Below are positions 27,605 to 43,391 of a DNA stretch of 64,000 nucleotides, one piece after another (within the stretch, counting starts at the first letter, position 1; each line of letters opens with the position of its first letter). Under the pieces are notes generated by a model, which was not told the origin of the DNA, ran no database searches, and saw only the letters and a list, made by a program, of their open reading frames with translations. The translations under genes and the position numbers were made by a program. The DNA comes from Planctomycetales bacterium 10988 (GTDB taxonomy: Bacteria; Planctomycetota; Planctomycetia; Pirellulales; Pb10988). The DNA lies in assembly GCA_009664345.1 (NCBI GenBank), contig CP043547.1, forward strand, positions 4,306,709-4,370,708, written 5' to 3'.

Positions 27605-29584
27605 TCATTGGAAAGAACGTTCGGTAAGGGACTGAGCACGCATGACTGCCGCGGAGGAGTGGCGATGTGTGAGCGGAAGTTGCCAGAGTTCGTAGCGTCT
27701 CAGCACCCCATCGGCGTCGCGAACTTCCGAAGTTTGGAGGGGGATGATCTTCTCGTCTTCGGAAAGGTCTCCTTGCTGATGGACCAGGTCCGAGAGCGTC
27801 GAATCGTAAACAATCCCGCCGGGTGTCAACGACGAGGCCAACAACACGTGGGTAAATCCTTCTTCTTGCAGATAGGTACCCAACGATTTCCCCGGTGGAA
27901 TCCGCTGTGGATAACCCGTCCGTTGTCGGAAGACGCTTTCGCGGACCAAGGCGGAATCAAAGTAAAAGGCACGAAGTTCTTGGCTGAGAATGCGACTTTC
28001 TGGCGACAAAATGAGATTGGCGACCTGAGCAATGTAAAAGGTCGGCTCGTGACGCATGAGGTATTCTTGGCGACTTTCAGTGCCGATGGCAACCTCCCAA
28101 TGCGGCAAAGAACGCCGGGCGGCAATCGCCGAACTGAAGCATCCCATTCCGAGAAAGACCACCGCTATCGCAACTTTTCCCCAACGAGGCCCCCGAGAAA
28201 TCTCGGCCAAGACCCAAGCGACCGCCAGTGCCAGCAACGGCAGGATCGGTAAAAAGAAGCGGAGATTCTGCCTCAAGAAAAAGCAGAGAACCGCATAACC
28301 CGAGGCGATCATCAACAACCAGCCCAGCCCCCGCAACCGGCGAACGAAGAGCAAGCCCGGCATAAAAGCAAGAAAAAGAAATCCCCATTGATGACTCCTG
28401 CCACCAAATTTTTCCGGGGACATCGTCAATTCCCATGGAGCAGAAAACCAGAGCAACGGATTCGTCCCAAGGGGTCGCTTGGTCGCTGGCATCGGATCAG
28501 GAGCATCGGCGTCGGTGTTTGCCCCCGCCATTGAGAAAACGGAATCCGCGTAAGGATAAACGGGATTGCCACGGTGCCACGCCGCGCGAACGTACCACAT
28601 TCCGCTGACGCTGAGGGCAATGATCAAGACCCAACCCACCTGCATTCGCCAAAGCTGCCAACCCTGACGATGCCGCCACGCATAGATTCCCCAGATCAAA
28701 ATCAAAACAACGACTAGCAACAGGGCGTTATACTTGATGCTCAATGCCCCTCCGGCCGCCAGCCCCAATAAGGTCTTCCAGCCATCATGTTCAGATCGCC
28801 AAAGTAAGCCGCACCAAGCCGCCAGCATCAACACACCCATCACTGCCACCCCCAGATCGTTCAAAGGAGCGGTCATTTGATTGTGAACGCCTGGAACCAA
28901 CAGCACGACGGCCCCGGCGATCCAACCCCAAGGACGCCCGATCAGCGGAGAGGCAAGAACTGCCGTCGCGGCAGCAAACAGCACCCCGAGACTCCAATGC
29001 ACCAAGCCAGCACAGACCGGCCCATCAAGGGCCAACGCCCAGAGATACCAGATGCTGACCAGCAAGGGAAACGTGCTACGTTCACTGTCGGGCAAATGAA
29101 TCAGCGAGCCAGATTCCAAAAACACTTTTGGCAACTGAAGATGATAACAGAGAGCATCGCCAGCAGTCGGAGGGGCAAGAGCCGAGATGAAAGAGCAACC
29201 CAGGGCGATCACCGCCAGCACCCCCAGCAAGGCACTCAACCACCACGGGGGCGCGGCAAGATACCGCCAACTCTCCACTTGTGCCAAAGGCCGAGGCTCC
29301 AACAAGAGCCATTCCGGCGGCTGGGGTCTCATCCACTCAAGCAATGTCCCATACCCACCGAGAATCGTCGCGAAAAGGATGAACCAGTAGGAAAGCCAAC
29401 CCAGTAGCCCCAGAAGACTAAAAAGCAATCCATAGCCCAGCGCACCCAGCATCAGACTCCAAACCGCGACTTCGAGCGGTTCCCGCATCGGGGGGAGTAT
29501 CCCACGGAGCAGCGGTCTTCCCAGGCCATAACAGGCCATGAGGAGCGCCGCCCAAGTCAAAATGGTCCAGAGATTCAAAAGCAA
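27605..29584 (-). CDS. GT-C type membrane glycosyltransferase (GT39/ArnT-like)
   Basis: 659 residues from a TTG start with TTGGAGAA upstream. About 11-13 transmembrane helices occupy the first ~480 residues. The first large loop holds TAGDALCYHLQLPKVFLESG, an acidic loop motif in the place where ArnT/PMT enzymes carry their catalytic Asp; these enzymes use polyprenyl-phosphate sugars as donors on the periplasmic side. A soluble C-terminal domain of about 170 residues follows. It is the last gene of the minus-strand glycan cluster. A near motif copy (29118-29129) encodes PKVFLES inside that same loop. Confidence 0.75.
   Translation of the reverse strand: MLLNLWTILTWAALLMACYGLGRPLLRGILPPMREPLEVAVWSLMLGALGYGLLFSLLGLLGWLSYWFILFATILGGYGTLLEWMRPQPPEWLLLEPRPLAQVESWRYLAAPPWWLSALLGVLAVIALGCSFISALAPPTAGDALCYHLQLPKVFLESGSLIHLPDSERSTFPLLVSIWYLWALALDGPVCAGLVHWSLGVLFAAATAVLASPLIGRPWGWIAGAVVLLVPGVHNQMTAPLNDLGVAVMGVLMLAAWCGLLWRSEHDGWKTLLGLAAGGALSIKYNALLLVVVLILIWGIYAWRHRQGWQLWRMQVGWVLIIALSVSGMWYVRAAWHRGNPVYPYADSVFSMAGANTDADAPDPMPATKRPLGTNPLLWFSAPWELTMSPEKFGGRSHQWGFLFLAFMPGLLFVRRLRGLGWLLMIASGYAVLCFFLRQNLRFFLPILPLLALAVAWVLAEISRGPRWGKVAIAVVFLGMGCFSSAIAARRSLPHWEVAIGTESRQEYLMRHEPTFYIAQVANLILSPESRILSQELRAFYFDSALVRESVFRQRTGYPQRIPPGKSLGTYLQEEGFTHVLLASSLTPGGIVYDSTLSDLVHQQGDLSEDEKIIPLQTSEVRDADGVLRRYELWQLPLTHRHSSAAVMRAQSLTERSFQ
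29118..29129. repeat. A4-ACAC-T4 near motif in the GT-C gene
   Basis: AAAAACACTTTT inside coding sequence; reverse complement AAAAGTGTTTTT. Short arms, so weaker than the exact copies. Confidence 0.4.
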
Positions 29585-29676: not shown

Positions 29677-29687
29677 AATTTGAGGTT

Positions 29688-29930: not shown

Positions 29931-29944
29931 GACTATTCTTCCGC

Positions 29945-31399
29945 TTACGCAGCCTTCGAATTCAGAGGGGAATCAATCAATGTCGGCGATGAAGAGAGCG
30001 AGGACTTTGAGAATTCGGGCAGAACCCGCCGAATGGCTTCCCAAACTTGAGAAACTGTCAATGCTCTCATGCAAGGATGATCGGCTTGCGAACAGGTCGC
30101 CCGATGACAGGGCGAACAGGCCGTCATCACTTGCAAAGACTGAACCGAGGTCCCCCACGGTTGCCATTGTTTTTTCCGATTGGTCCCACTGAACAGAACG
30201 ATCGCCGGTGTCCCCACGGCCGCCGCGAGGTGGACCGGACCGGAATCCGCCCCGATGACAACATCCGCCAGCGCGAGCAACGCCGTTAATTCTCCCAGGC
30301 CACATTCCCCACACCAATTCGCGTAGCGGGTAGAATATTGAGGCCCCATGATCAATGCCGCGTGACGTCGCTCTGCTTGTGTTCCGATCAATACAACACG
30401 AGCGAGAGGGTTCTCGCCAAGCTTCCGAACCAACTGACGCCAATGTGAAAACGGCCATCGCTTCGCAGCGGTTCCAGCACCGATATGCAAAACAACCAGC
30501 GGCGAGGTCGATGGGTCCTGATTAGGAAGAACGTCGAGCGTGCGGAGTCGCTGTGCGACCGATGTAAAAAACACATTTTGGGGTTTCAACCGAGGTCGGC
30601 ATGCCGGGACCAATTGCTCTTCTCGATTCCCTAACACCCGCAAGAGTGCCGCACGAGAAGCGACCTCGTGCCGAGCAGGCACAAATGTCGGGCTGTCCGT
30701 CAGCAAAAAACCGCCTCCACCGCAGTTCCAACCTAGTCGCCGTTGTGCCCCCATCAGCCACATAAAAAACGCATGCGGCAATTCCCCCCGGACATCGATC
30801 GCCAGATGATATCGTTCCTTCCGCAGGGAACAGGCCCAGCCAATCAGATCCCAAACCCACCATCGTTTCGCTTTTTTCGGGGAAAAACGCGTTGATTGAC
30901 AGCAATAAACCTGATTGACGACCGGAGACAATTGGAAAAGCTCAGCGTTGGCTTGACTTGCCAAGACATCGATTCGCGCCCGAGGAAACTGTTTCTGCAA
31001 AATCTTCAAGAACCCAAGGCTCAAAACCGCATCCCCCAAATGATCGAGTTGGATCACCAGAATGGAACGAGGTTTCGCCCACGAAACCGGCTGATTTTTC
31101 GGCATCCAAGGCATGGCCTGCACGATCGATCGCAGGAACCACCCACCATAATCAATCGTTCCCATCACGACATGCCATCTCGCCCGCACATAACGGTAAT
31201 GCCTTGGCAACGGAATAGGCCGTGGGGAGCAAGGGGCAGCCCGCTGAACGGGGAAGGGGATCTTGAGAAACAATGCTTTCGCGAGCTTGGTCCAACCGAC
31301 AACCATAATGCGGAATGACTCCCCCCAGACACGACCGAGGGCAAGCAAGGGGGATAAAATCAAAAAGCGCTTTTGATATTGATTAAAGCACGGAAACAT
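29945..31399 (-). CDS. Glycosyltransferase family 9 (ADP-heptose:LPS heptosyltransferase-like)
   Basis: The GT9 fold starts near residue 110 with RSILVIQLDHLGDAVLSLG and ends with GADSGPVHLAAAVGTPAIVLFSG, the classic nucleotide-sugar signature; HIGAGTAAKRWP is the usual mid-protein motif. The family moves heptose or related sugars onto lipopolysaccharide core. ATG 31399 overlaps the end of the upstream gene by 17 bases and has GAGGGAGG just before it, but the spacing is tight. ATG 31306, with GGGGAG, is an alternative that would put the motif copy at 31362-31374 outside the gene. The ~110-residue N-terminal extension is unusual. Confidence 0.88.
   Translation of the reverse strand: MFPCFNQYQKRFLILSPLLALGRVWGESFRIMVVGWTKLAKALFLKIPFPVQRAAPCSPRPIPLPRHYRYVRARWHVVMGTIDYGGWFLRSIVQAMPWMPKNQPVSWAKPRSILVIQLDHLGDAVLSLGFLKILQKQFPRARIDVLASQANAELFQLSPVVNQVYCCQSTRFSPKKAKRWWVWDLIGWACSLRKERYHLAIDVRGELPHAFFMWLMGAQRRLGWNCGGGGFLLTDSPTFVPARHEVASRAALLRVLGNREEQLVPACRPRLKPQNVFFTSVAQRLRTLDVLPNQDPSTSPLVVLHIGAGTAAKRWPFSHWRQLVRKLGENPLARVVLIGTQAERRHAALIMGPQYSTRYANWCGECGLGELTALLALADVVIGADSGPVHLAAAVGTPAIVLFSGTNRKKQWQPWGTSVQSLQVMTACSPCHRATCSQADHPCMRALTVSQVWEAIRRVLPEFSKSSLSSSPTLIDSPLNSKAA
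31362..31374. repeat. A5-GCGC-T4 motif with extended symmetry near the GT9 start
   Basis: AAAAAGCGCTTTT; the symmetry extends outward to TCAAAA...TTTTGA. It lies in the first codons of the GT9 gene, or just upstream of it if ATG 31306 is the start. Confidence 0.55.
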
Positions 31400-32561
31400 A
31401 GGCCTCCCTCGTCAATCGGGCTACCGTTGACCAATCGTATTGTTGTTGCACCATGCTTGCCAGCAAAGAATTTCGAGGCTCTTTCAGGGCCTGTAAAACG
31501 GCTTCGCGAATCGCGGTTGGCTGATGAGGCGGCACGTACTTGGCGAAGTCCCCAAAGTACTCATGCGTGCAACCGCCTTGCGGTAGGACCAGTGGAACCC
31601 CGGACATCCCCGCTTCCAAGGCCACCAACCCCGGTGTTTCAAACCAACTACACAGCGCCAAACATCCGCAATTTGCGTAAATGCTTTCTAGGCGAGGGTC
31701 CTCATGATCGCATCGAGGGAGAAAGGTCACCTCAGGTCCGGCGATCTCGCGGCAGGCTCGATAGTAAGCTTCCTGGCCTGGCACCGGATCACCCAAGACG
31801 ACGATGGGAACCTCCGTCCCTTGCATCGCCCGCAAAAAAGTCCATTGATTCTTGCGTGGCTCGATCCTTCCGGCATAAAGCACGAATGGGCCAAGCTCCT
31901 CCAACTCCGGCCAACTTGATGAAGGCCGAGCGAAGCGACTGTCGGCTCCGTTAGGTACTAAATGGATTTTTTCCGAGGGAATCCCAAATAAACGAACAAG
32001 TTGCTCACCCTCGGCATGCGAGTTGGGCAAGATTTTATCGACGGAATGATACAGTTCTCTTCGCCAAGAAGGCAACCACGGAGCAAGCTGCCGCGTCGCG
32101 AACTTCGCACTGTTCCAGCTACGTTTCCATAGTGGATCGGGTTCTCGCCAGCAGTTTGCCGCATCAAACCAAGCGATAGAGGACAAGACCACCGGAACGC
32201 GGTGAGAACGGGCGGCCTGGACAATCGAGAGATGCTCCGGCTCACTGCCAAACAAATGGAGGCAGTGAATCTCCTCCCAATTCATCTCCCAAGGTCGCCA
32301 GTAGCGAGCATCGACCTTATAGGAACCAAGGGCTTGCCGCGTCTTCTGCATCTGCACTTCCCCGCCCCCCGGTGCAGCCGAGGCACGTAGCGACCCTGCG
32401 AATGCTACCTGAAGTGTCTTCGGTAGTCGCGAGAGATAAGCCTTCCCTCGTGCTCCCGGCAAAGGAGGAGGTTGTAATTGATCTAAGTCAGATTGTTCGA
32501 CACCCAAAGTACGTCCCATCGAAAGATTGTTTTGCACCCTATCTTCGTTCAATTCGATCAA
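31383..32561 (-). CDS. Glycosyltransferase family 4
   Basis: 392 residues from TTG 32561, chosen for AAAGGAG 7 bases upstream; the sequence GGAGTTCTTCCTTG is also found at the ppk1 start. The GT-B C-terminal half has LVPNGAD, LYAGRIEPRKNQ and the EX7E motif ETPGLVALEAG, the donor-phosphate/sugar site of GT4 enzymes. The acceptor is probably a surface glycan or LPS intermediate, given the cluster. It overlaps the next gene downstream. Confidence 0.88.
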   Translation of the reverse strand: MIELNEDRVQNNLSMGRTLGVEQSDLDQLQPPPLPGARGKAYLSRLPKTLQVAFAGSLRASAAPGGGEVQMQKTRQALGSYKVDARYWRPWEMNWEEIHCLHLFGSEPEHLSIVQAARSHRVPVVLSSIAWFDAANCWREPDPLWKRSWNSAKFATRQLAPWLPSWRRELYHSVDKILPNSHAEGEQLVRLFGIPSEKIHLVPNGADSRFARPSSSWPELEELGPFVLYAGRIEPRKNQWTFLRAMQGTEVPIVVLGDPVPGQEAYYRACREIAGPEVTFLPRCDHEDPRLESIYANCGCLALCSWFETPGLVALEAGMSGVPLVLPQGGCTHEYFGDFAKYVPPHQPTAIREAVLQALKEPRNSLLASMVQQQYDWSTVARLTREAYVSVL

Positions 32562-32705: not shown

Positions 32706-32719
32706 AAAAAACGTTTTTT
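32706..32719. repeat. A6-CG-T6 perfect palindrome
   Basis: AAAAAACGTTTTTT in the 169-base gap between the deacetylase-like and GT4 genes. It fits A5-N4-T5 but with centre ACGT, so it may be a divergent copy or chance. Confidence 0.5.
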
Positions 32720-32730
32720 AAATGTTTTCC

Positions 32731-34197
32731 CTATCCCTGCAACCGACGTATCATCCATTTTGTCCAACCTCTCCAGCTTGGGTCGGAAATCTCTTCCGCC
32801 GGAGTTACCTTCTCCCAATCAATTTGCTGACGAAATCGCTCCTTGAGAGATTCGCGTCGATCGATCCGGGTAGGGCTGGGATAGCGTAAAACGTGCCGCT
32901 TTTGAAACGCCAAGCTGGCCGGATTGAACTGGACGACCGGTTCATCGAGCGGAAATAACGCGACCAAATCTCCCCGGCAATATTCGATTCCGACCCGATA
33001 GGGGGCCGTCTGCGAATCGACAAAGAGCGTGTACTGCGAACCGCGGCGATGGAGTTGTAGTTGAATCGCCCCGCGTCGTTGCCACCAATTCGCATACTCT
33101 CTCAGCGTTGTTTTCCAAAGCGCTGCACAGGACTGCACGGTTTCGAGGATCGCATCCAAGATTTCCGGAGCGGCTCCCAATCGACCGGTGGGATGACCAT
33201 ACAGCAAGATTGGCTCCGCCGCCGAATACTTCTGCCGAATCAAGCTGACGAAATAATCCGTCGCCAGGGCAACCGCTTCACTCTGCGTCACTCTCCCTGG
33301 CAGTGATGCCTGGGATCGTTCGGCGGCTTCCAAGAACAAACCTAAACAAACCGGATGGACCGGCAGTTGCAGAACTTGACTATTCTGAGGAAAAAAGGGC
33401 AATTCATCGTAAGCGAGCGAAAACTCGCTACTGTATTCAAGCCCAAGCTCCTCCAATGCCTCCCGCAGCCCGGCGTTATATTTTCCATGAGGAGCTACGA
33501 AGCCTTTCGACTCGATGCCGGCCTCTTCAAGCACATCCAAGCCGCGGCGGATGTTCGCCAGGTTCTCGTCGGCCAGCCGATAAGTATGGTGCCAATAGCC
33601 GTGTCCACCGGTATCCAAATCCTGAAAGCGGGCAAGAATGGCCGGATGCGGCTCGTAAGCAGAACCACAAATAAAGTGACTGAACCACTCCGGCGATCGC
33701 TCGACTCGCTTGAAGGTCTGCTCAAAATCCTCGGGATGATATTCATCGTAGTCGATGCGAAAATTGAACACACTTCGATAAGGGAAAGGAAAGGCAGCGA
33801 TCCGCAGCCAAACTCCACCGGCTTGCTCAACCTGCCGACGCAGCTGCCCCAGCAATTTTCGACGGACTTGCCGATGGGCTACCCGGGCGATTTGCTCCTG
33901 CAATTCCAACATCCCCACACGCCATAGATGCGGTGAAGACTGCTCTTCCAGCAGCGAACCGAAGGGATCATAGGCCTCTTTGGTCAACTCGGCGATGTTG
34001 ATTGCCTGCTGACCTTCGTGCAAATTGGGCTTGCCTTTGCGGCGTGAATCCCAAAGCACAATCTGCCCTTGAGTCTCCGTAGCGGATTGCTTCAGCCAAG
34101 GAATACCTTCCTGCGTCAAGATTCGCTCTAACCCACCTGAGACCCCATCGAGGATCAGCGGAAGTAGTGGAAGATGCGGATCGGGCTTCCTGCCCAT
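32731..34197 (-). CDS. Polysaccharide deacetylase-like protein (NodB homology / CE4)
   Basis: 488 residues. The barrel-type motifs are readable: an acidic metal motif FRIDYDEYHP, a His motif GGHGYWHHTY, the GFVAPHGKYN strand, and LLYGHPTGR near the end of the domain (about residues 140-380). CE4 enzymes remove N- or O-acetyl groups from glycans with a divalent metal. An N-terminal ~130-residue region and a C-terminal beta-rich region of ~110 residues are not recognised. No signal peptide, so it may act on cytoplasmic precursors or be inactive. ATG 34197 has GAGG upstream. Confidence 0.78.
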   Translation of the reverse strand: MGRKPDPHLPLLPLILDGVSGGLERILTQEGIPWLKQSATETQGQIVLWDSRRKGKPNLHEGQQAINIAELTKEAYDPFGSLLEEQSSPHLWRVGMLELQEQIARVAHRQVRRKLLGQLRRQVEQAGGVWLRIAAFPFPYRSVFNFRIDYDEYHPEDFEQTFKRVERSPEWFSHFICGSAYEPHPAILARFQDLDTGGHGYWHHTYRLADENLANIRRGLDVLEEAGIESKGFVAPHGKYNAGLREALEELGLEYSSEFSLAYDELPFFPQNSQVLQLPVHPVCLGLFLEAAERSQASLPGRVTQSEAVALATDYFVSLIRQKYSAAEPILLYGHPTGRLGAAPEILDAILETVQSCAALWKTTLREYANWWQRRGAIQLQLHRRGSQYTLFVDSQTAPYRVGIEYCRGDLVALFPLDEPVVQFNPASLAFQKRHVLRYPSPTRIDRRESLKERFRQQIDWEKVTPAEEISDPSWRGWTKWMIRRLQG

Positions 34198-34283
34198 AGT
34201 TTTCGCCTCACAAAAACGAATCGTCTGAGTCTAAGAGTCTATCTTCGTTGATGAACAAAAAGCCGAGTGGCTTCAGCAATCTT

Positions 34284-34320
34284 AAAAATACTTTTTACAT
34301 TCAATCCAAAAAGCACTTTT
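34284..34320. repeat. Pair of A/T palindromic motifs upstream of the deacetylase-like gene
   Basis: AAAAATACTTTTT at 34284-34296 and AAAAAGCACTTTT at 34308-34320, starts 24 bases apart. They lie in the gap between the GT2 gene end and the deacetylase-like gene start. Confidence 0.65.
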
Positions 34321-35068
34321 AAGAACCTTGCGAAAGCCTCCGATGCTTTCGTATCAATTCCCATTCCGACCAACCACTCAACATACAAAAGGCCCAACCA
34401 ATCGGGCCGTCTCGCCAACCTTGCTTCCAGATCAAACGTCGAAAGATCTCTCTGCAGGCAGCGTAGAGTCCACTTCCCCAAATGGCTTGTTTCCCGGCAT
34501 CGCATCGCGATTTCGCTTCCAACGCGGTATAACGATGAACTTTTTCACAAAAGGCATCGAGCGTCGGCAGCGTGTAATGCGTCAAGGTCGTCGCTAAATG
34601 CCCGACCTCGCCATCGACTCGCAACACTTCATGCACGGAGCCTTCCCAGCAAGCATGATCTTTGCGAAAGAGTCGAATGGGCCGATCATCTTGAGTCCCC
34701 CCGAAAGCCATCGGATGACCGAAAATGTGGCTTTTGATCCGAATACGAAAGGCGGTAAGGTTCGTCGTTTCCATGTGCCGACGTATCTCAGCCGGCATCC
34801 CCGTCGAAGGTCGTTCGTCTGCATCAATCGAAAGAATCCATTCCCCACGAGCCAAATCACAAGCGGCGTTTCGCTGGTCGGCAAAGGTATCAAACGGTCG
34901 AACCTGGGCGACGGCTCGATATTCTTTCGCGATGGCAACCGTGTCGTCGGTCGATCCACTGTCCAACACGATCACCTCATCGGCCCAAGCCAACAGCGGC
35001 AGCAACTCGCGTAAGTGAGCCGCTTCATTCCGAGTGATCAAAACTACCGATAGCTGAGGCCGTGTCAT
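34319..35068 (-). CDS. Glycosyltransferase family 2 (KdtX/WaaE-like LPS glucosyltransferase)
   Basis: Start set at ATG 35068, which overlaps the stop of the upstream gene (ATGA); an earlier frame extension has no support. 249 residues. The GT-A fold is shown by SVVLITRNEAAHL, VLDSGSTDDT, DQRNAACDLARGEWILSIDADE (quoted parts; the DAD is the metal site) and CWEGSVHEVL. The layout matches beta-1,4-glucosyltransferases of LPS core synthesis. The stop lies at the edge of the paired motif at 34284-34320. Last gene of the coupled series 34319-41109. Confidence 0.88.
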   Translation of the reverse strand: MTRPQLSVVLITRNEAAHLRELLPLLAWADEVIVLDSGSTDDTVAIAKEYRAVAQVRPFDTFADQRNAACDLARGEWILSIDADERPSTGMPAEIRRHMETTNLTAFRIRIKSHIFGHPMAFGGTQDDRPIRLFRKDHACWEGSVHEVLRVDGEVGHLATTLTHYTLPTLDAFCEKVHRYTALEAKSRCDAGKQAIWGSGLYAACREIFRRLIWKQGWRDGPIGWAFCMLSGWSEWELIRKHRRLSQGS

Positions 35069-35859
35069 TCCCCCTGTCCCTCTCTCCAAGCCAACAGGCC
35101 CACGCGGGCGGCGGCTCGCAGCTGATAGTATCCGGCGAAGCAGGCAAGCTCCAACCATATTCCAAACGGTTGCCAATACCCGACGAGCATCGCCGCCAGC
35201 AACGCATGAAGGCGAACGTCCGCATTGGCTGGCACATGATAAGCGGCTTTCAAACAATCTGCCAAGGTCAGTGCGGACGACTTTTCGGGATTTCTTTGAT
35301 CATGCTGACGAAACTTCGCGGCAGATGAAATTTGTTTTGCTAATAACGATTCCTGCTGCAACCCGTGGACAAGGAAGTATTTCCCGCTGAAAAACGCCGC
35401 CAGCAGATACCAAATCGTGGCATCGTGCGTGAGGGTTTGGTAAACGTAGGCAAGTGCGGCATGCAGGCCAAGGTCGAGAACCTCGTCAAGCTGGGCATCG
35501 AGCCAAGCCCCGAAAGTCGAACATCGTTGTTGGACGCGGGCCAGCAATCCATCAAGTCGATCACATTCCCACGCAAGCAATAAACAACCCGCCGCCGGGA
35601 ACAACTGCGTCGGCCAAACGAGCATGATGACCGCACTGAGTGCCGCAAAGCACGCTCCCAGACAAGTGATTTGCAGAGGATGCACCGAGGAACCGGCTAG
35701 CATACGAGCAAGCCAAGCCGCCGTCGGCCGGATGTACCAACGCGAGATCGGGTATTTTCGTCCCCGCTCTTTTTCCTCTTGTTGCCATTTTGCCAAGTCC
35801 CCCCAGCCAGCGTTTCCGAGGCTCGTCGATGCAAAGCTTTCTTGAGTTGCGGCCTTCAT
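35065..35859 (-). CDS. CDP-alcohol phosphotransferase family membrane protein (I)
   Basis: 264 residues with about six hydrophobic helices. The complete active-site pattern D-x2-DG-x2-AR-x8-G-x3-D-x3-D is present as DRLDGLLARVQQ followed by GAWLDAQLD, so the enzyme should be active. The family moves a phospho-alcohol from a CDP-alcohol to an acceptor alcohol, as in phospholipid synthesis. Here it lies between two glycosyltransferase genes, with 4-base overlaps on both sides, which suggests modification of a glycan or its lipid carrier rather than bulk phospholipid synthesis. A second, divergent family member is two genes upstream. Confidence 0.85.
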   Translation of the reverse strand: MKAATQESFASTSLGNAGWGDLAKWQQEEKERGRKYPISRWYIRPTAAWLARMLAGSSVHPLQITCLGACFAALSAVIMLVWPTQLFPAAGCLLLAWECDRLDGLLARVQQRCSTFGAWLDAQLDEVLDLGLHAALAYVYQTLTHDATIWYLLAAFFSGKYFLVHGLQQESLLAKQISSAAKFRQHDQRNPEKSSALTLADCLKAAYHVPANADVRLHALLAAMLVGYWQPFGIWLELACFAGYYQLRAAARVGLLAWREGQGE

Positions 35860-36962
35860 CCTTGTCCTTCCACACCAACAAGCGGAGAGAGTTCCTGGGG
35901 TGAAGATTCTTGCACAAGGTCACCCGGCGACGAGTTCGAAGATGGGTTCGCAAGGCAACGCGGAGAGAATCTCGCAAAGAATTTTTTTTCTCGCTGGGAT
36001 GATTGCCGAGGGAGCGAGATGTCTGCCTTGACCGTGAAATATCGATGGCAGGCTTCCAGGAAGGCACCCGTGAATAGCCACCGTTCCCCGTGTGGCTTCC
36101 ACCAACAGGTTCCAACTTCTCGTAAAATTCTTAGGGAAATACCAAACAACTGCCGCAGCCGATGGGCAGGATCACGCAGCCGCAGCCATTGAAACAGCAG
36201 TGTATTTCGATAGGCCAACCGCAAGCAGCCGGTCTCTCCATACGCCAGCGAGAAGGTCGCGGCCCCCCAATGATAGGCGATTGCATCAGGCACATAACAG
36301 AGCCGATCCCCCGCCAAATAGGCCCGATAGCAGAAGTCGAGGTCCTCGATTCTTCCCGGCAGAAAGATCGCGTCGAATCCGCCAAGCTCCACGAAGCGTC
36401 GACGGTCCACCGCGAACACCGATCCGGCAACCGCCGTTTCATCGGGAAGTCCGCTGACTTTTTCATAACCGGGAAACCAACTTGTCGCCTGCACCAAACC
36501 CGATCGCCAACGAACGGCGGTCTTCAATCCTTCATAAACCGGGGCATTTTCCACATTATCGGTCATCAAGAAACATCGTGGAGCCGTGAGAGTACAGCGG
36601 CCAAGAACTTCCGATGTTGAAGAATCGCCCTTGTTGCTCTCCGGCAAAAGAGGCCGAATAAGATGCTTCAAGCAATTGGGAGAGAGTTGAACATCGTTAT
36701 TCAAAAGCACCGCGACGTCTGCATTGCTCTTTGCCAAGACTGGATTGAAGGAACAAAGCCCGCGATTTGGCTGGGGAATAACCGTCACTTCCGGGTGGTG
36801 CTGGGCGAGCCACGCTACAGATTGATCGGTCGAGTCATTATCGATTACCGTCACGCGGCATGGCCAAGGAACTCGCTTCGCAGCCGCCAAGATCGAGGGC
36901 AAACACCGAGGCAGTAACGCTTGACCATTATAATTGAGGATGAATACCTCGATGGTGATCAT
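35856..36962 (-). CDS. Glycosyltransferase family 2 (rhamnosyltransferase-like)
   Basis: 368 residues from ATG 36962, chosen for the ATGA overlap with the upstream stop and AGGAG 8-9 bases before it. GT-A motifs: FILNYNGQALLPRCL, VIDNDSTDQS, PNRGL, VLLNNDV (metal site DxD variant NND) and LPGRIEDLDFCYRAYLAGD (quoted in part), where the ED motif resembles the catalytic base region. It is sandwiched between the two CDP-alcohol phosphotransferase genes. Confidence 0.88.
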   Translation of the reverse strand: MITIEVFILNYNGQALLPRCLPSILAAAKRVPWPCRVTVIDNDSTDQSVAWLAQHHPEVTVIPQPNRGLCSFNPVLAKSNADVAVLLNNDVQLSPNCLKHLIRPLLPESNKGDSSTSEVLGRCTLTAPRCFLMTDNVENAPVYEGLKTAVRWRSGLVQATSWFPGYEKVSGLPDETAVAGSVFAVDRRRFVELGGFDAIFLPGRIEDLDFCYRAYLAGDRLCYVPDAIAYHWGAATFSLAYGETGCLRLAYRNTLLFQWLRLRDPAHRLRQLFGISLRILREVGTCWWKPHGERWLFTGAFLEACHRYFTVKADISLPRQSSQREKKFFARFSPRCLANPSSNSSPGDLVQESSPQELSPLVGVEGQG

Positions 36963-37957
36963 CGGCAAGTCTCCTCATGTCGGGCTATGTGAGCATTCAA
37001 AAAGTGTTTTTTATTAGATTCAAAGGGTTGATACCAGGCCGCGAATTCGGTCTCGACTTTGCATTGCTGCAACGACCGCCGCATCAGATACCCGGCGACG
37101 AGCGGCGTCCAGGTCGCCATGAATGCCACATAACTCATGGCCCCCAGCCCTCCTTTTCCGAAGTCTTTCGTTAGCCACCACCAACCCGCGATCACCGTCA
37201 GGACGTTCATCATGATATGTGTTTCGCAAAGCTTTCTGCCCAGCCATTTCCCTCGTCCGACCCAAGTCGCCGGCTGCATTGCAGGTCGCAAGCGGTGGCG
37301 ATTTCCTCCGCCTTGCACCAAAAGTTTCCCTTCGATTCGCTTTAGCCGCAGTAAAAAAGCCTTGTAGCGAACATCCTCCAAGAAACCAATCGCCAGCAAA
37401 CCGCCGCTCCACGTCACTCCGGCAAGCAACCAAAGCGGGGAAGGCCATTGTTGAAACAACCCATATCCAATGCCCAACGGCAACGCGAAGTTCACGAGGT
37501 GATGCATCCAATAATCAAAGGCGACTCCATCGAGCGAAGAGGTTTGATGGTAGCGGGCAAGCTGTCCATCGACGTGATCCAGCAGGTACCACAGTTGCAG
37601 GAGTGCCGCCCCCCACAGCCAGCCGCTCTCTCCTCCCACCGCGAATGCGAATGCCGAGGACCATCCACAGACCAACGCGACGCAGGTCATTTGATGGGCC
37701 GTCACCCCAAGCGGAATCAGGCAGGCCGTTAGATAAAGCCCGACCGGCCGAGCGATGCGGCGAGCCATCCAACTCCCGTGGGTGCGATGCCCCGGCTTTT
37801 GACAACGGGCTTCGAACTGCCGCCACTGTCGTTGACGAAGTCGCCACCTTCGCTGAAACCGCGCAGCGACGGTCGTTCTACTCAACGAACTTTTCAAACA
37901 AGGGCGAGCGGTCGGCACCTTCAAACCTTTCTTTTCTGGGAAATGGATGGCATTCAA
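36959..37957 (-). CDS. CDP-alcohol phosphotransferase family membrane protein (II), altered last Asp
   Basis: 332 residues from a TTG at 37957, three bases after the previous stop; no in-frame ATG exists before residue 64. A basic N-terminal ~60 residues precedes the membrane part. The active-site pattern reads D-HV-DG-QL-AR, eight residues, G, then DYWMHH: the final Asp, thought to be the catalytic base in the family, is His here. All the CDP- and metal-binding aspartates before it are kept. The protein may use His as base, may have a different reaction, or may be inactive. Translationally coupled with the following GT2 gene. Confidence 0.82.
   Translation of the reverse strand: MNAIHFPEKKGLKVPTARPCLKSSLSRTTVAARFQRRWRLRQRQWRQFEARCQKPGHRTHGSWMARRIARPVGLYLTACLIPLGVTAHQMTCVALVCGWSSAFAFAVGGESGWLWGAALLQLWYLLDHVDGQLARYHQTSSLDGVAFDYWMHHLVNFALPLGIGYGLFQQWPSPLWLLAGVTWSGGLLAIGFLEDVRYKAFLLRLKRIEGKLLVQGGGNRHRLRPAMQPATWVGRGKWLGRKLCETHIMMNVLTVIAGWWWLTKDFGKGGLGAMSYVAFMATWTPLVAGYLMRRSLQQCKVETEFAAWYQPFESNKKHFLNAHIARHEETCR
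36999..37012. repeat. A5-GTGT-T5 motif inside the second CDP-alcohol phosphotransferase gene
   Basis: AAAAAGTGTTTTTT; reverse complement AAAAAACACTTTTT. It lies in the last ~15 codons of the minus-strand gene, encoding KKHFLNAH. Confidence 0.65.
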
Positions 37958-37959
37958 AG

Positions 37960-39957
37960 CTATCCAGCCATCGTGACCGCGCGACGGCGGCTCGACGGAG
38001 TTGCTGCCTGCCGCTTTGAAGTTCGGGCAAAGAGCTGGCGATTCTGAATCTGGGCCAAGGCTTCGAGCACTCGCTGACTGGCCTCTTTCCCGGTTTCATG
38101 GAAGATGGCGGTCCGCCCCTCCGCAACCGAGCCTGGTGGCGATGCCTGCCATGCTTGCCAGAGAGCGGCCAATTCTTCCCCGTTGCGAGCCGATCCCAAT
38201 AACCGCCAAGATTCCGCCGGCAAAACTTCCCCGGCACCACTCGGCAAGAGCTGGACCACCGGCCATCCCAGCCACGCCGCTTCCATTCCGGCAGAGGAGG
38301 CACAGCTCAACACAAGCTCGGTTTTGGTCAGAAGCGTCTCTAAAGCCACATGCTGAACGACCCTCACTTTGCCCTCTTGAATGGCTGCGAATTGCTGCCA
38401 AAAGCGATGATCCTCACAGCGAGGATGTCGCTTGATGAGCAGCTCGGCGTCAGGCTCTCCGGCGAAGACTTGCAAGATTTCTTCAATCAACCGCTGATAA
38501 CTCTTCCGCGTTAGATGCAGCATGGCCGAGTCCGCCCGAGCCGATTGTGGAACTTTCGTAGCTAAGAGCAGAATTCGATGACGACGCTCTTTGCCCGGCA
38601 TTTCCTTCGTCGAGGAAAATGCTTTCTTCAAAAAGCACTTTTTACTATTTTGCTCATCTTGATGCGGTGCTCCAGTGAGAAGCAATCGTGAGGCCGGGAT
38701 TCCCCAGCGAACGAACTGCTCTTGGGAGGCACTTCCCCAGCAACAAGTCGCATCCGCCAGCATCGGAACAAATCCCATCGCGACGCAGGGGACACCATGC
38801 TGCACGACGACACTTTTGGCCCCAAGTCGCTTTGCCTCACTTAAGAGAATTCGTTTGAAAGGCGTGGCGTCTTCGTCAATGACAATCATATCAGGGCGGA
38901 AATTTTCTAAATGGCGCGACGTTGCATTCGCCCAAGAAGTAGCCTTCTCGCCAGATTCGAAAATCGCTTTTTGCAACCAAGCTTCGAGGATCGGGGTCAG
39001 ATCGATCCGCCGCCAATGGAGAGAATGTTCCTGAAGTTCAGCATCAATCCGGCTTGTCGTAGCAGGCTCATCACAGAGGAATTGCCGCACTCCACGAGGC
39101 CGCCACTTTCGCCAGACATTCAATGCCAACTTTTGCCAAAGCCACGCAACTTCCCCTTTTTGTTCCACCAGCGATTGACAAATGGGCTCTAGAAAACGTG
39201 GATTTCCACACAAGAGAACTCGTTGTGGAATCGCCTGAAACCGCAAAATCGGAGAAGGTTCTTGCTCGCTTGCACCGAAAGTATCACTCAACCAATCCAC
39301 CCCGTGATTGACGGAAGTGCAGACCTTTCGCAGGCCCTCGCGGGTTGCCTGATTCAAGCCCGCCGCGGTTGGCTCGGAACCCGATTCCGCGATCAACTCA
39401 CATTGTTGCGGTTCCATCTGCCAGCGGATGTCGAGAGAAAAGCCATCGCGAGCACGGGCCTGCTTCAACAATTGGGCAAGGTCCGCATCCCGTTTCGGGC
39501 AAAGAATCGCCACCAACCGATCTTGTGAAGTACAATCCCAAATGCCATCCAAAAAGACCAACACCCTCAATAATCGAAGGCAATAGTAACGTAATTTCAG
39601 GGCATAAACGAAACCGGCCCGCTGCCAAAGAGGCGATCCCTGCGAGGCACTCTTGGCCGCATCCGCCGCCCGATCCGCCAGTTGGCATGCTTTCCGATCG
39701 AGCCAACCAAACTGACCATCGATTGTTTCATCAAGCGACCACCGCCAAGGCTGCTGCCATGTCTCGGGCCAATCCCCTTCGAGCAGCACGCTGGGATAAG
39801 GGGGAAGCGATTCCTGAGAGAGACCTTCGTTTCGCGCGAAAAGATAATAAGTCGTCACGAAATGCCCTCCTGGCAAGTTCGTCAAGGGATGTGATCGATC
39901 GAGAGAAGTGATTCGTAGTCCATTGCCGAGGCCGCTTTCCAGCATCAGCCCTGGCAT
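37960..39957 (-). CDS. GT-B fold surface-polysaccharide transferase-like protein
   Basis: 665 residues. The C-terminal ~330 residues look like the capsule-type GT-B proteins (KpsC/KpsS or polysialyltransferase style): VVVQHGVP, CCWGSASQEQFVRWGIP, LLLTGAPHQD, LLIKRHPRCED and SCASSAGMEAAWLGWPVVQL (the last at the nucleotide-sugar site). The N-terminal ~250 residues are a separate, unrecognised region. Probably transfers a sugar such as a nonulosonate or Kdo to a surface glycan, given the neuB-like gene directly upstream (12 bases between them). One exact motif copy (38630-38643, encoding SKKCFLKK) and a near one (38960-38972) lie within the gene. Confidence 0.7.
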   Translation of the reverse strand: MPGLMLESGLGNGLRITSLDRSHPLTNLPGGHFVTTYYLFARNEGLSQESLPPYPSVLLEGDWPETWQQPWRWSLDETIDGQFGWLDRKACQLADRAADAAKSASQGSPLWQRAGFVYALKLRYYCLRLLRVLVFLDGIWDCTSQDRLVAILCPKRDADLAQLLKQARARDGFSLDIRWQMEPQQCELIAESGSEPTAAGLNQATREGLRKVCTSVNHGVDWLSDTFGASEQEPSPILRFQAIPQRVLLCGNPRFLEPICQSLVEQKGEVAWLWQKLALNVWRKWRPRGVRQFLCDEPATTSRIDAELQEHSLHWRRIDLTPILEAWLQKAIFESGEKATSWANATSRHLENFRPDMIVIDEDATPFKRILLSEAKRLGAKSVVVQHGVPCVAMGFVPMLADATCCWGSASQEQFVRWGIPASRLLLTGAPHQDEQNSKKCFLKKAFSSTKEMPGKERRHRILLLATKVPQSARADSAMLHLTRKSYQRLIEEILQVFAGEPDAELLIKRHPRCEDHRFWQQFAAIQEGKVRVVQHVALETLLTKTELVLSCASSAGMEAAWLGWPVVQLLPSGAGEVLPAESWRLLGSARNGEELAALWQAWQASPPGSVAEGRTAIFHETGKEASQRVLEALAQIQNRQLFARTSKRQAATPSSRRRAVTMAG
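38630..38643. repeat. A5-GCAC-T5 motif inside the GT-B gene
   Basis: AAAAAGCACTTTTT; on the coding strand it encodes KKCFL in a charged loop between the HQDE segment and the next strand. Confidence 0.75.
38960..38972. repeat. A4-TCGC-T5 near motif inside the GT-B gene
   Basis: AAAATCGCTTTTT; encodes QKAIFES, nearly the same peptide as the copy at 5006-5019. Weak match in its centre. Confidence 0.35.
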
Positions 39958-39969
39958 TCGGTAGACAGC

Positions 39970-41109
39970 TCAGGTGCGAACCTTTGCTGGCCTCGCTCGC
40001 TGCTCCGTCAGCGTTTCCTGCTCGGGGTCGTGCAAGTCTTCTTCCCGCAGCATCTCCCCGGCTTGCACTGATTTATTGAGCCTTCGCCCTAACACACGCT
40101 GTCGCTCTTGCCAGGGAATTCCATCGCCAGGGCATTTCAGCGTCAGCATTGCTTCTTGAATCGAAGTCCCCTTGGGCAACGATTGTTTTACTGTCAGGCT
40201 GCGGCCGAGCTTCTCGCGGAAGGGGGTCGTGCGTGGCGAGACCGGCTTATCGGCCCGGCCTAAGGCCCTTTCCACTTGCCGCACTTGTTCGACTAACTGC
40301 CGAAATTCCTCCGGCTCCAGCGAACACTGATGATCGCTACCCTTGGCGGTTCGGTCGAAGGTTAAATGTTTTTCAATAACGCAGGCCCCCATCGCCACCG
40401 CGACCGGAGCGAGCAAACTCCCCGGCGAGTGATCGGAAAAGCCGACCGGCACCCCATACCGTTGTCGCAACGTCTGCATACTTCGCAGATGCACTTCGTC
40501 CCAAGGCGTTGGATACTGCGAGGTACATTGCATCAACAGCAACGGCACCCCCGCTTCCTGAAACACCCTGACGCCGACGTCCAATTCTTCCCAAGAAGAC
40601 ATCCCCGTGGAGAGCAAAACCGGACGATCCCGCCGACAAAGGGCCTTCAGCAAAGGAAGATTATCCGCATCCCGCGAAGCGACCTTGAACGCATCGACCT
40701 CAAACTCATCAAGCAGCGAAATGCTCGGCGGATCGCAAGCGGTTCCCAAATAAAGGAGGCCATGCTCGCGAATTCGTCTTGCCATTTGCCGATGAGCCTC
40801 CGCAGAAAGCTCCAAGGCCCGCCGATGCTCCCCGTAAGTTGCACCAAACGAATGTGGTCCGGAATAGGGCCGATCACGCAGATGCGTCGCCAATTCCCAA
40901 TCCAGGTCTCGCTTCGTTATCTTGACGGCATCGACACCAGCCCACTTCGCCGCGTCAATCAGTTCCATCGCAAGGCCAAGGTCCCCGTTATGATTCTGAC
41001 CGATCTCCGCGACGATCAAAGCCGGACAGTTCTCCACGTTCGATCGCCCATTTTCTTCTGGAGCAACTTGATAAACATGAGAACCTAGAGAGACCGGCAA
41101 AGACGACAT
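39970..41109 (-). CDS. neuB: N-acetylneuraminate/nonulosonate synthase (NeuB family)
   Basis: 379 residues. TIM-barrel synthase domain with LIVAEIGQNHNGDLGLA, DAVKITKRDL, SFGATYGEHRRALELS, FKVASRDADN, LSTGMSSWEEL, GFSDHSPG and IEKHLTFDRTAKGSDH (quoted in parts), then a C-terminal SAF/antifreeze-like domain (about 300-370). The family joins phosphoenolpyruvate to an N-acetyl sugar to make sialic or related nonulosonic acids. The usual VKFQ is VKIT here, with the Lys retained. No CMP-sialate synthase (neuA) or epimerase (neuC) gene is visible in the window. ATG 41109 has AAAGGA upstream; first gene of the coupled series. Confidence 0.9.
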   Translation of the reverse strand: MSSLPVSLGSHVYQVAPEENGRSNVENCPALIVAEIGQNHNGDLGLAMELIDAAKWAGVDAVKITKRDLDWELATHLRDRPYSGPHSFGATYGEHRRALELSAEAHRQMARRIREHGLLYLGTACDPPSISLLDEFEVDAFKVASRDADNLPLLKALCRRDRPVLLSTGMSSWEELDVGVRVFQEAGVPLLLMQCTSQYPTPWDEVHLRSMQTLRQRYGVPVGFSDHSPGSLLAPVAVAMGACVIEKHLTFDRTAKGSDHQCSLEPEEFRQLVEQVRQVERALGRADKPVSPRTTPFREKLGRSLTVKQSLPKGTSIQEAMLTLKCPGDGIPWQERQRVLGRRLNKSVQAGEMLREEDLHDPEQETLTEQRARPAKVRT

Positions 41110-41254
41110 GAAACGAGAATCCTTTTCAACGATGAACCCTTCGGTTCTCTTAGCTGGAACATACAGAGTCGGGAGTCTACAAGGGACCTGCGGTTTTCGT
41201 CAAGAGAGACCTGAACCTTCCGAATGCCTGACGGGGCATCCTGATCGGAGAAGC

Positions 41255-41539
41255 TCAACTTTCGATGACTGCTTCCAGGAGGGAAATCGCGACAACCTGC
41301 CGCAAAGGAACAAACACTTTCCGGCGATTGGGGCGAATGCCATGCTCACGGCAATCGAGAGTATACTTCTCGCGGGTGCTGGCCGTGTCTCGCAAATCGT
41401 GCAAATCGGCATCTTCCAGCAAAAAACTATCTCCACGCATTTCAATGAAACGCCCTAACACGACAAAAGGAGCATCCAGATCAAGGACAATCTCGTGCCC
41501 GATATATTCTTGATAAGTCGGCAGTGGTCGATCAATCAT
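41255..41539 (-). CDS. Small conserved-looking hypothetical protein
   Basis: 94 residues from ATG 41539, with AAGGAG at a good distance upstream. The sequence alternates hydrophobic and charged residues (EIVLDLDAPFVVLGRFIEMR, SFLLEDADLHDLRDT, KVFVPLRQVVAISLL, quoted in parts), which suggests a small beta-barrel such as an SH3/Sm-like fold. No catalytic motif. It lies alone between neuB and the aldolase-like gene, on the same strand. Confidence 0.65.
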   Translation of the reverse strand: MIDRPLPTYQEYIGHEIVLDLDAPFVVLGRFIEMRGDSFLLEDADLHDLRDTASTREKYTLDCREHGIRPNRRKVFVPLRQVVAISLLEAVIES

Positions 41540-41745
41540 CAGAACACTCCTTGACAGTGTTCATCCTTTGGTTCAACGCGAATGGGGCTTGCCTGCTACT
41601 GAAAAGCCCGCGTCTCTCTCAAATCCAAAGGCGAGAGTAATCAAGCAAATCGCAATCCCCTATCATAACGGATAGGAATCAAGCCTGTCCATGAGCTTGA
41701 TAGGGAATGAAAGGAGAAGAGAGGAAAGCTGGAGAAGAAAGGACC

Positions 41746-42558
41746 TCAGCGACTAAGCTTTGCCACGGCTTCGATAAATTGTCGGTCAAGCTCAAGTAAC
41801 TCCGCCCGCGAAAGCGAGGAGACTTGATCAAGAGAATCCCATAAGTGTCGTAATGCCTGTGGGAAGTCTTGCTTAGAGATAGAATGATTTAAAAAACTTC
41901 GCGAGATGAGCGTTCGTGTGGCTCCAAGCAGGCAAAGCTGGGAATAAAAGAAAGCGGGAGGAATGGGCACCGAAGAATCTCCAGGGTAACCCACTCCAGC
42001 GATTCCAAAAGGAATGTTTTTGGAACGTAACAACTCAAAAGCTTCATCGAGATGGTGGTTTGTTAACACTTGAAAATGAAAAGGAAGCTTCAGAGCAAGC
42101 CGCAAGTCATTCAATCCAAAATGAACTTCATCAACACCCTCTAGCTGAATCAATTCTGATAAAAGAGAAACACTCTCAGGTGTCTCAATTAACAGCACAA
42201 CGCGGGCACGATTCTTTACATAGGATAAAAATTTTTCTACTTCCGAAACTGTGTGAAAGTAAGGAAGCATCAGCCAATTCACACCCGCTTGAATGAACGA
42301 TTCAATCTCCTGCTGACTTTCAGCATGAATCGGGTTCACCCTCGCGAAAGATTCCGCCTTTGTTAACACACGCTGAATGCGAATAAAATCTTCTAATGTA
42401 TGGTCTGAAAAACGGTTCTCCTTTCGTGCTTGACGGTTCTCTTTTCCAAGCACCTCAAGATCAACCCCGATCCGTCCAATCCCCCCTAGGTCCGCCTGTT
42501 TCGCCAACAGGGGATCTTTTGTAAATAAAGTAAATACAAAAGTAGAGGAAGGATTCAA
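41746..42558 (-). CDS. HpcH/HpaI-type aldolase (class II, citrate-lyase-beta-like)
   Basis: 270 residues from TTG 42558, chosen because AGGAGG lies 12 bases upstream; a TTG at 42585 would add nine residues but then contain that Shine-Dalgarno sequence. Barrel motifs of the HpcH/HpaI family: FARVNPIHAE, GVNWLMLPYF, VVLLIETPES and EVHFGLNDL. The family cleaves or makes C-C bonds with pyruvate or acetyl-CoA type partners and a metal. The usual loop Arg/Glu/Asp set is partly different, so activity is uncertain. It follows two similar glycosyltransferase genes and may make or trim an unusual sugar. More AT-rich than the genes before 41 kb. Confidence 0.75.
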   Translation of the reverse strand: MNPSSTFVFTLFTKDPLLAKQADLGGIGRIGVDLEVLGKENRQARKENRFSDHTLEDFIRIQRVLTKAESFARVNPIHAESQQEIESFIQAGVNWLMLPYFHTVSEVEKFLSYVKNRARVVLLIETPESVSLLSELIQLEGVDEVHFGLNDLRLALKLPFHFQVLTNHHLDEAFELLRSKNIPFGIAGVGYPGDSSVPIPPAFFYSQLCLLGATRTLISRSFLNHSISKQDFPQALRHLWDSLDQVSSLSRAELLELDRQFIEAVAKLSR

Positions 42559-42611
42559 GGAAATTTTTTCCCTCCTAAGGAACAATAGTGATTTTAGGTA
42601 AAATAAAAAGT

Positions 42612-43391
42612 TTACGCGGCCTCGCGAAAACCTGAAACCGCAGAAGAATGGTAAGGCACAATGACTGCTTGTCGAGCAAAATTATCAAACTCTTTGATTT
42701 GCTTGTCTCGATCCCACGTATACTGGATTCCCCAATTTTGTTGAAAGTCTTTCGAACGTAAGCCCGAGCATAATTCCGCATGACGCTCAATCACATATTC
42801 TTTACTTAAATATTTAAAGTGTAAATTCAACACTTCGGATTGCTTTGGATAAACAATATTTCCTGTAGGTTGGGCAGAATGGCGACCTTCGGCATAATTA
42901 ATTTCATCCACTTCATTTGGATTGAAGATGGCGATCTTATCCATATAAGAATAAGGAACCCCTGTGTTAATCATATCGCAAAGTCGAGATTGGGTAGTTC
43001 TCGCCTCCGGAAATTCCTCGTTGACCATTTGATAACCAACACTGGGAATCACTGTGATTCCATCCTCGTTCGCCTGTTCTAAATAGCCAAGGAGATCGGG
43101 ATGATAATGATGTTCGTCTACATTACAAACGATGACCCAGTCTGCTTTTCCACGGCTTTCCTTCCAACAATGATGAAAAAGTTCTCGCATCGATTCTATA
43201 AAAGAATCCGGGCGGTTTCGCATTAAAGGACAAACTTCAACTTGAGGATACTGTGATAAATAGGCAACGGAAACATCCGTGGAATGATCATCAAATAAAA
43301 CAAATTGATCAACATAGGGAAGATAGTGCCGCATAAAATAGGGCAGCATTCGGATATCATTCCAACAATTCGCGTAGAGATGGATTCTCAT
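42612..43391 (-). CDS. Glycosyltransferase family 2-like protein (copy A of a pair)
   Basis: 259 residues; ATG 43391 has GAGGGA 8 bases upstream, better than the TTG at 43406. Motifs: IHLYANCWNDIRMLPYFMRHY, FVLFDDHSTD, WVIVCNVDEHHYHPDL (quoted in parts; the DEH is the metal-site equivalent). This is the short GT-A type found as Glyco_tranf_2_4. About half the residues appear identical to the neighbour at 43613, so the two arose by duplication. Confidence 0.82.
   Translation of the reverse strand: MRIHLYANCWNDIRMLPYFMRHYLPYVDQFVLFDDHSTDVSVAYLSQYPQVEVCPLMRNRPDSFIESMRELFHHCWKESRGKADWVIVCNVDEHHYHPDLLGYLEQANEDGITVIPSVGYQMVNEEFPEARTTQSRLCDMINTGVPYSYMDKIAIFNPNEVDEINYAEGRHSAQPTGNIVYPKQSEVLNLHFKYLSKEYVIERHAELCSGLRSKDFQQNWGIQYTWDRDKQIKEFDNFARQAVIVPYHSSAVSGFREAA

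Follow-up and report, generated by a model that had tools for sequence, protein, structure and literature searches.

Class-I cytidine diphosphate (CDP)-alcohol phosphotransferases (CDP-APs) have eight "absolutely conserved" residues in common; D1 to D3 bind metal and D4 is the likely catalytic base (PMC4634129). According to the same source, six-helix members of the family use soluble acceptors, and members with lipid acceptors carry three to four extra helices. Here we analyze two such proteins, A and B, encoded in a surface-glycan gene cluster on a 64,000-nt stretch of DNA from Planctomycetales bacterium 10988 (GCA_009664345.1, CP043547.1, positions 4,306,709-4,370,708, forward strand), referred to below as the window. 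What is new, as judged from aligned sequences, is a CDP-AP clade, including A, with His (or Asn) in place of the "absolutely conserved" D4. A natural His-D4 clade that is tied to glycan genes and has some cultured carriers, such as Singulisphaera acidiphila, would allow a direct test of the D4-base mechanism, and the cluster suggests that the envelope of planctomycetes may include a glycan or lipoglycan with phosphodiesters. A literature search covering few subscription papers, and thus providing weak evidence of absence, found no account of this cluster, of CDP-APs in polysaccharide loci or of a D4-His variant, and no described planctomycete glycan or lipoglycan of this kind.

By profile and by structure, the nearest described protein is AF2299 of Archaeoglobus fulgidus (PDB 4o6m/4o6n), which has the six-helix fold in common with A and B. 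It differs in possessing an N-terminal cytidylyltransferase-like domain and an Asp at D4; the short N-termini of A and B hold no such domain, PF01066 being the only domain found in either, and A has His at D4. The phosphatidylinositol (PI)-phosphate synthases (PIPS; PDB 5d92, 6h59, 6wm5) have the fold in common with both proteins, have the signature in common with B and supply the best NCBIfam name for B, but the scores fall far under the family cut-off, the genome has no match to INO1 and A lacks D4. PIPS enzymes initiate the phosphatidylinositol mannoside (PIM) and lipoarabinomannan glycolipids of actinobacteria. The biosynthesis of PIM or of glycosylphosphatidylinositol (GPI) resembles this cluster in that a single pathway brings together a CDP-AP, a family-4 glycosyltransferase (GT4), a deacetylase-like protein, a flippase and a terminal membrane protein. 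This likeness is one of analogy, and no inositol route was recognized here. We take PF05159, the family matched by the GT-B-type protein of the cluster, to be that of KpsC/KpsS. These enzymes build a 3-deoxy-D-manno-octulosonic acid (Kdo) linker on phosphatidylglycerol (PMC10148158), and group 2 capsules and the cluster may have in common a PF05159-type GT-B protein and the logic of a phospholipid-anchored glycan. The differences are that the PF05159 match is weak here, that many relatives carry a Wzx-like flippase, and that a scan of the main genes at 26710-46052 found no ABC exporter domain (KpsMT). Eukaryotic CHPT1 and CEPT1 have been proposed to employ a histidine base with D4 kept (PMC10182977, PMC10156783); their His133 is an extra residue beside D3 in a protein of ten helices, whereas in A the histidine replaces D4 in a protein of six. 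The available text of PMC12419801 discusses VanZ-type proteins for lipid-linked glycans, not this locus, and mentions CDP-alcohol phosphatidyltransferases once, for archaeal phosphatidylserine.

The predicted fold of A and B and the change at D4

An earlier note on this DNA had described a coupled operon of six genes at 34319-41109 that contains two CDP-APs. Both are real, but the note did not mention what is most unusual here, namely that A has lost the catalytic Asp. The 6.65-Mb single-contig genome encodes only three proteins that match PF01066, and because two of these are A and B, their pairing in the operon goes beyond chance; the third is PgsA (TIGR00560 126.9 bits, cut-off 109.1). The AlphaFold2 models of A (pLDDT 89.9) and B (pLDDT 83.1) each contain six core helices, as counted from the models, and on this basis both are predicted to be six-helix class-I CDP-APs. 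In a structure comparison AF2299 ranked first for both, followed by DIPP synthase (DIPPS) and then by the PIP synthases. Against 4o6n_A the A model gave Z 17.9 with a root-mean-square deviation (rmsd) of 9.2 over 224, and the B model gave Z 17.9 and rmsd 3.7 over 213; against 4mnd the values for A were Z 16.4 and rmsd 2.8 over 192. Profile searches likewise returned AF2299 as the nearest solved protein (E 7.6e-22 for A, 6.8e-14 for B). The NCBIfam scores are below the cut-offs in every case, at 28.2 (A) and 51.7 (B) of 170 for PI-phosphate synthase and 36.1 (A) and 51.3 (B) of 180 for archaetidylinositol-phosphate synthase.

The signature D1xxD2G..AR..G..D3xxxD4 is complete in B, D1 to D4 are invariant in its alignment A2 (8 sequences), and D4 is Asp in all readable loci with a B match (11 of 12, one of which, L091, encodes another CDP-AP). 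A lacks the full signature. When aligned with AF2299 (4o6m), DIPPS and PIPS it presents His152 at D4, and D1 to D3 are invariant in 45 aligned sequences. Among 55 related loci (described below), 54 could be read at this position, and of these 49 have His and 5 have Asn, all of the latter from Omnitrophota. The patterns used to find loci span D1-D2 and D3 but not D4. All 14 order-level sequences have His as well, although most of these are not independent of the 55-locus reading. As far as the sequences tell, A is thus a variant inside the class-I fold family that lies outside the standard catalytic set.

When 392 genomes of the phylum were searched by profile, without any pattern, 92 gave matches. 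In 30 frames from the 29 best-scoring loci of these genomes (our own excluded), D4 is His in 15, Asp in 13, Asn in one and Glu in one. Thirteen of the His frames have Trp or Ala for the preceding Gly, and three have Glu at D3. These phylum-wide His-D4 CDP-APs (L129-L150, from other Planctomycetota) have neighbors that differ from those of our cluster, and a carbamoyltransferase-type group, of which one member was scanned, lies near 7 of 11 His-D4 loci (regions L156-L166). In a tree, sequences labeled Asp (28 tips) and those labeled His or Asn (74 tips) fall on opposite sides of one branch with support 0.963. This tree has no true outgroup (the PgsA locus, L001, was not included), one sequence on the His/Asn side is unread, and the second frame of L136, which the script labeled Asp and which is among the 28 tips, has Glu in the alignment. 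Read in this way, the tree is compatible with a single change at D4. A histidine base in A is chemically plausible by analogy, because CHPT1/CEPT1 are proposed to use one, and we consider the chances that His152 acts as the base to be evenly balanced.

Conservation of the cluster in relatives

The neighborhood conservation search that the earlier note had proposed was run and found the cluster to be conserved among relatives. (L numbers denote loci in relatives and G numbers denote genomes in the genome searches.) In L026, the relative with the most complete set, 13 genes follow one another and encode a cytidylyltransferase-like protein (CTP3), NeuB, a HAD phosphatase, the GT-B protein (GTB), Wzx, A, a family-2 glycosyltransferase (GT2a), B, a second one (GT2b), a deacetylase-like protein (DAC), GT4, a family-9 glycosyltransferase (GT9) and a membrane protein (MEM). 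In L027 and L028 the run is kept from HAD or CTP3 through MEM. Among 39 genomes, including our own, a limit of E 0.001 gave matches to A in 10 and to B in 9, of which one or two in each case were weak. Across 246 genomes of the order, A was present in 24, B in 20 and both in 19 (Fisher p 8e-23, ignoring kinship). The bit limits for this count were set after the scores were known (above 300 bits for A, plus G050, where the end of a contig truncates A; above 100 bits for B), and G197, with 49 and 65 bits, was excluded from it. The raw matches were 31 and 116 of 246; those below the limits are probably other CDP-APs. In 12 of the 19 two-gene genomes A and B share a contig and are no more than about 3.5 kb apart, and in the other seven they are on different contigs.

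An earlier scan of named-genome contigs with a single protein as query had found no relative. A profile scan of named genomes with alignment A1 yielded 55 named loci, from Pirellulales, other planctomycetes, Isosphaeraceae-type bacteria and Omnitrophota, plus L047 and L093. Some of the Isosphaeraceae-type carriers are cultured (S. acidiphila, L065; Singulisphaera sp., L071; Aquisphaera insulae, L074; Paludisphaera soli, L080), and we take these organisms to belong to the family Isosphaeraceae; 'Candidatus Aadella', also among the 55, is presumably a member of the Omnitrophota. Many loci are on short contigs, where absent neighbors mean little, and the locus sets partly overlap (to judge by length, L032 and L077, L034 and L058, and L043 and G008 C69 are the same contigs). 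In 52 of the 55, one or more further families of the cluster lie beside A; the exceptions are L070 and L096, which are short contigs, and L093, which is not. The families found near A are Wzx (31 loci), MEM (25), GT2a (22), GT2b (19), GT4 (18), GTB (17), CTP3 (16), GT9 (13), B (12), HAD (12), deacetylase (8) and NeuB (4). Named contigs keep the order of L026, often interrupted by contig ends, and all loci with a B match except L091 show the order A-GT2a-B (11 of 12).

What the Isosphaeraceae-type and other Planctomycetales loci keep is MEM-A, and several of them have Wzx and a methyltransferase upstream. In several Omnitrophota loci A precedes GT2a and GT2b, and GT4 and Wzx are also kept with A. 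As assembled, some genes are fused in frame: GT2a-B in L031 (5228-7135) and L090 (10969-12717), and Wzx-A in L028 (10559-12985). Frequent fusion was considered and rejected; a frame test restricted to best matches left the GT2a-B fusion of L090 alone among the named loci. Two further observations concern individual loci. In L094 (8328-9977) the protein encoded directly before A joins a pyruvate-kinase barrel to an APS-kinase domain (genes of this barrel family occur in 7 Omnitrophota loci, of which the L094 member was scanned), and L091 has a separate APS kinase near A. L047 and L093 are single records filed as Nealsonbacteria and Gottesmanbacteria, and the former bears a Pirellulales-like A-GT2a-B-GT2b set; its label is probably a binning error.

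The presence of B in 19 of the 24 genomes with A, together with the 52 loci that retain cluster genes, ties the CDP-APs to glycan genes across relatives. The earlier note had named the outcome that would speak against such a tie, CDP-AP genes lying apart from the glycan genes in relatives and having a phospholipid role; we looked for this and did not find it. Very probably, then, the CDP-APs serve the glycan.

A proposed pathway and its alternatives

The search for cytidylyltransferases able to make a CDP-alcohol, suggested in the earlier note, was carried out in the genome with PF01467, PF02348 and PF12804. The PF01467 matches are NadD, CoaD, HldE and one protein without a name. PF02348 matched KdsB, a GlmU-like protein, IspD and a protein at 1.28 Mb, presumably SpsF-like, with an intact ARMGSSRLPGK stretch. 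Ten proteins matched PF12804. Seven of them were scanned (a MobA-like, two MocA-like and a GMP-like protein, all below cut-off, and RfbA, GlgC and RfbF), two were known from PF02348 (the GlmU-like protein and KdsB) and one has no name. RfbF, a glucose-1-phosphate cytidylyltransferase, scores 318.3 bits with TIGR02623 (cut-off 300.25). No CDP-glycerol (TagD), choline, ethanolamine or ribitol cytidylyltransferase was recognized among the named proteins of these three families (PF00483 was not searched). INO1 (PF07994) was not matched in the genome, while the same search was positive in 5 of 14 control genomes; this result and NCBIfam scores far under the cut-offs led us to rule out inositol lipid synthesis. 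To our knowledge CDP-diacylglycerol is made by every bacterium, and it is expected here (CdsA was not searched for). Because neither INO1 nor a dedicated CDP-alcohol cytidylyltransferase was recognized, CDP-diacylglycerol is the simplest donor, and we regard it as an even proposition that it serves both A and B. The earlier note had suggested either a polymer with phosphodiester-linked alcohols or an unusual lipid anchor; the lack of a recognized dedicated cytidylyltransferase in the three families favors the anchor, but the nearest structure, that of a CDP-glycerol enzyme, does not.

In the pathway that we propose, A and B would each act at the cytosolic face and use CDP-diacylglycerol to place a phosphatidyl group on a polar acceptor, which would be a sugar, a sugar phosphate or a polyol. 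A donor of this kind and a soluble acceptor would yield a phosphatidyl-type glycolipid, which would be a dedicated primer or anchor. The GT-B, GT2, GT4 and GT9 enzymes would extend the primer, a flippase of the Wzx type would turn the glycolipid over, and MEM, at the cluster end, would work on the outer side. Many relatives have the flippase gene inside the cluster; in this genome it would lie elsewhere or have been replaced. In A, histidine would take over as base or as metal ligand. The logic would resemble that of a GPI, PIM or capsule anchor. On balance we lean toward reading the cluster as a surface-glycan locus of planctomycetes that incorporates two class-I CDP-APs and whose product is a phosphatidyl-type primer or anchor. 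A more tentative proposition, to which we give slightly less than even weight, is that Planctomycetota and Omnitrophota have a CDP-AP clade in which D4 has become His (Asn in one Omnitrophota branch), and that in Pirellulales this clade works together with a canonical CDP-AP to build a phosphodiester-anchored surface glycan.

Several observations weigh against the proposed pathway. AF2299 and the next nearest structure, DIPP synthase, do not process lipids, and the polar donor pocket of AF2299 holds CDP-glycerol (PMC4634129). Possible makers of polar CDP donors remain, namely RfbF (CDP-glucose), the two MocA-like proteins, the unnamed PF01467 protein and the unnamed PF12804 protein. Of the named loci, 36 extend 4 kb or more upstream of A; 24 of these gave a Wzx match above 80 bits, and the other 12 gave none. 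The cluster in the window is itself without a flippase; Wzx-like and MurJ proteins are encoded elsewhere in the genome, and the Wzx of L027 used as query, with no positive control, found no match in it. NeuB is absent from most loci. A occurs without B in five genomes (G004, G022, G069, G125 and G188), and B without A in G030. In G009 (L032, L031) and G013 (L029, L030) A and B sit in separate glycan loci, the split falling between A and GT2a as if there were two modules with one CDP-AP each; in G004 (L033) and G022 (L034) only the half ending with A is shown. Because the locus can split in this way, each half may rely on its own CDP-AP, A in the flippase half and B in the glycosyltransferase half.

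The affinity to AF2299 and the presence of RfbF are what would be expected if the CDP-APs instead decorated or bridged the glycan with a polar phospho-alcohol, such as glycerol phosphate or hexose-1-phosphate, to give a teichoic-acid-like phosphodiester polymer. CTP3, which is cytidylyltransferase-like and found in 16 of the 55 loci, could be cited in its favor too, but it lacks the usual ARxxSxRLPxK stretch and is not in the operon of the window. This, and the failure to recognize TagD or a choline/ethanolamine or ribitol-phosphate cytidylyltransferase among the named PF01467, PF02348 and PF12804 proteins, make the polymer a possible but rather unlikely product. A different doubt concerns A itself. 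MtPIPS with a D4N change is nearly inactive (PMC4634129), and A could therefore be catalytically dead. It might then be a non-catalytic partner, a dimer mate or scaffold for B or another CDP-AP, with B alone making the phosphodiester; the solved RsPIPS, AF2299 and DIPPS are homodimers (PMC4634129), and every one of the 54 readable loci has His or Asn at D4 of A. However, A is found without a B match in Isosphaeraceae-type and most Omnitrophota loci, the retention of D1 to D3 would be unusual in a dead enzyme, and the histidine base proposed for CHPT1/CEPT1 offers an active alternative. We consider a pseudoenzyme improbable. The top NCBIfam names, PI-phosphate and archaetidylinositol-phosphate synthases, might also suggest that A and B are ordinary phospholipid synthases (PI-phosphate or phosphatidylserine synthase, for example) that sit in a glycan operon by chance. 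The scores are far too low for this (at best 51.7 of 170 for B and 36.1 of 180 for A), INO1 is not matched, a general step of phospholipid synthesis would be expected in more of the 246 genomes than the 24 and 20 with strong matches, and glycan genes of the cluster accompany A in nearly all named loci. This last explanation is very improbable.

Gene content of the operon and its surroundings

The genes of the operon and of its downstream extension are listed in Table 1. All six genes of the reported operon are present on the minus strand and are tightly packed, and the family names given to them (neuB-like, GT-B, two CDP-APs and two GT2) are upheld by the Pfam matches, that of the GT-B protein being weak. 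Overlaps of 4 bases or distances of up to 12 bases had been claimed. This agrees with the gaps of 12 bases (neuB/GT-B) and 2 bases (GT-B/A) and with two overlaps of 4 bases, but A and GT2a overlap by 10 bases, a value that shrinks to 4 if GT2a starts at the ATG at 36962, its likely start. The unit also extends past the reported end, as DAC, GT4, GT9 and MEM follow downstream in the same direction and in the same order as in relatives. CTP3, HAD and Wzx, present in L026, are not in the cluster of the window. The GT-B protein matches PF05159 over residues 476-569 only and scores 50.7 bits with TIGR04396 (cut-off 125). A reading of the MEM sequence would make it GT-C-like.

Table 1. Genes of the operon and of its downstream extension in the window.
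Gene and product	Coordinates	Strand	Basis
neuB, NeuB-family synthase with SAF domain	39970..41109	-	PF03102 248.5 bits, PF08666 30.7 bits
GT-B-type protein, 665 aa, surf_polysacc / Capsule_synth-like	37960..39957	-	PF05159 24.7 bits (cut-off 20)
CDP-AP A, 332 aa, TTG start, His152 at D4	36959..37957	-	PF01066 27.6 bits (cut-off 22)
GT2a, family-2 glycosyltransferase	35856..36968 (TTG) or ..36962 (ATG)	-	PF00535 46.1 bits
CDP-AP B, 264 aa, full signature	35065..35859	-	PF01066 39.7 bits (cut-off 22)
GT2b, family-2 glycosyltransferase	34319..35068	-	PF00535 57.6 bits
DAC, polysaccharide-deacetylase-like (weak)	32731..34197	-	PF10096 21 bits, below cut-off 26; position conserved in relatives
GT4 glycosyltransferase	31383..32561	-	PF00534 54 bits
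GT9 glycosyltransferase, heptosyltransferase-type	29945..31399	-	PF01075 119.4 bits
MEM, 659-aa membrane protein	27605..29584	-	no Pfam or NCBIfam match; in 25/55 named loci

NeuB of the window scores 302.2 bits with TIGR03569, under the cut-off of 399.65. Among order-level loci NeuB is found in the window and in L026, L032, L033 and L034. With 4 of the 55 named loci encoding it, its treatment as a core member was dropped, and the cluster carries NeuB as an accessory. NeuB, CTP3 and the HAD phosphatase could form a nonulosonate route in L026, L032 and L033. The earlier suggestion that the glycan contains a nonulosonic acid does not hold in general, given the rarity of NeuB and the degenerate signature of CTP3 in relatives. 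CTP3 is cytidylyltransferase-like by PF02348/PF12804 and is part of many Pirellulales-type clusters, but in the planctomycete sequences compared its N-terminal signature is degenerate and the usual stretch has been lost, as comparison with L091, L040 and KdsB indicates. With its nucleotide-binding stretch in this state, CTP3 was not relied on as a maker of the CDP-alcohol. The CTP3 genes (L044-L092) keep their place in the cluster despite the lost nucleotide-binding signature.

Upstream of neuB, at 41746-44398 of the window, lie an HpcH/HpaI-like gene and two tandem Glyco_tranf_2_4 genes that are 50% identical. The GC content of this segment is about 41%, compared with 55% in the operon, and the segment is possibly a recent insertion.

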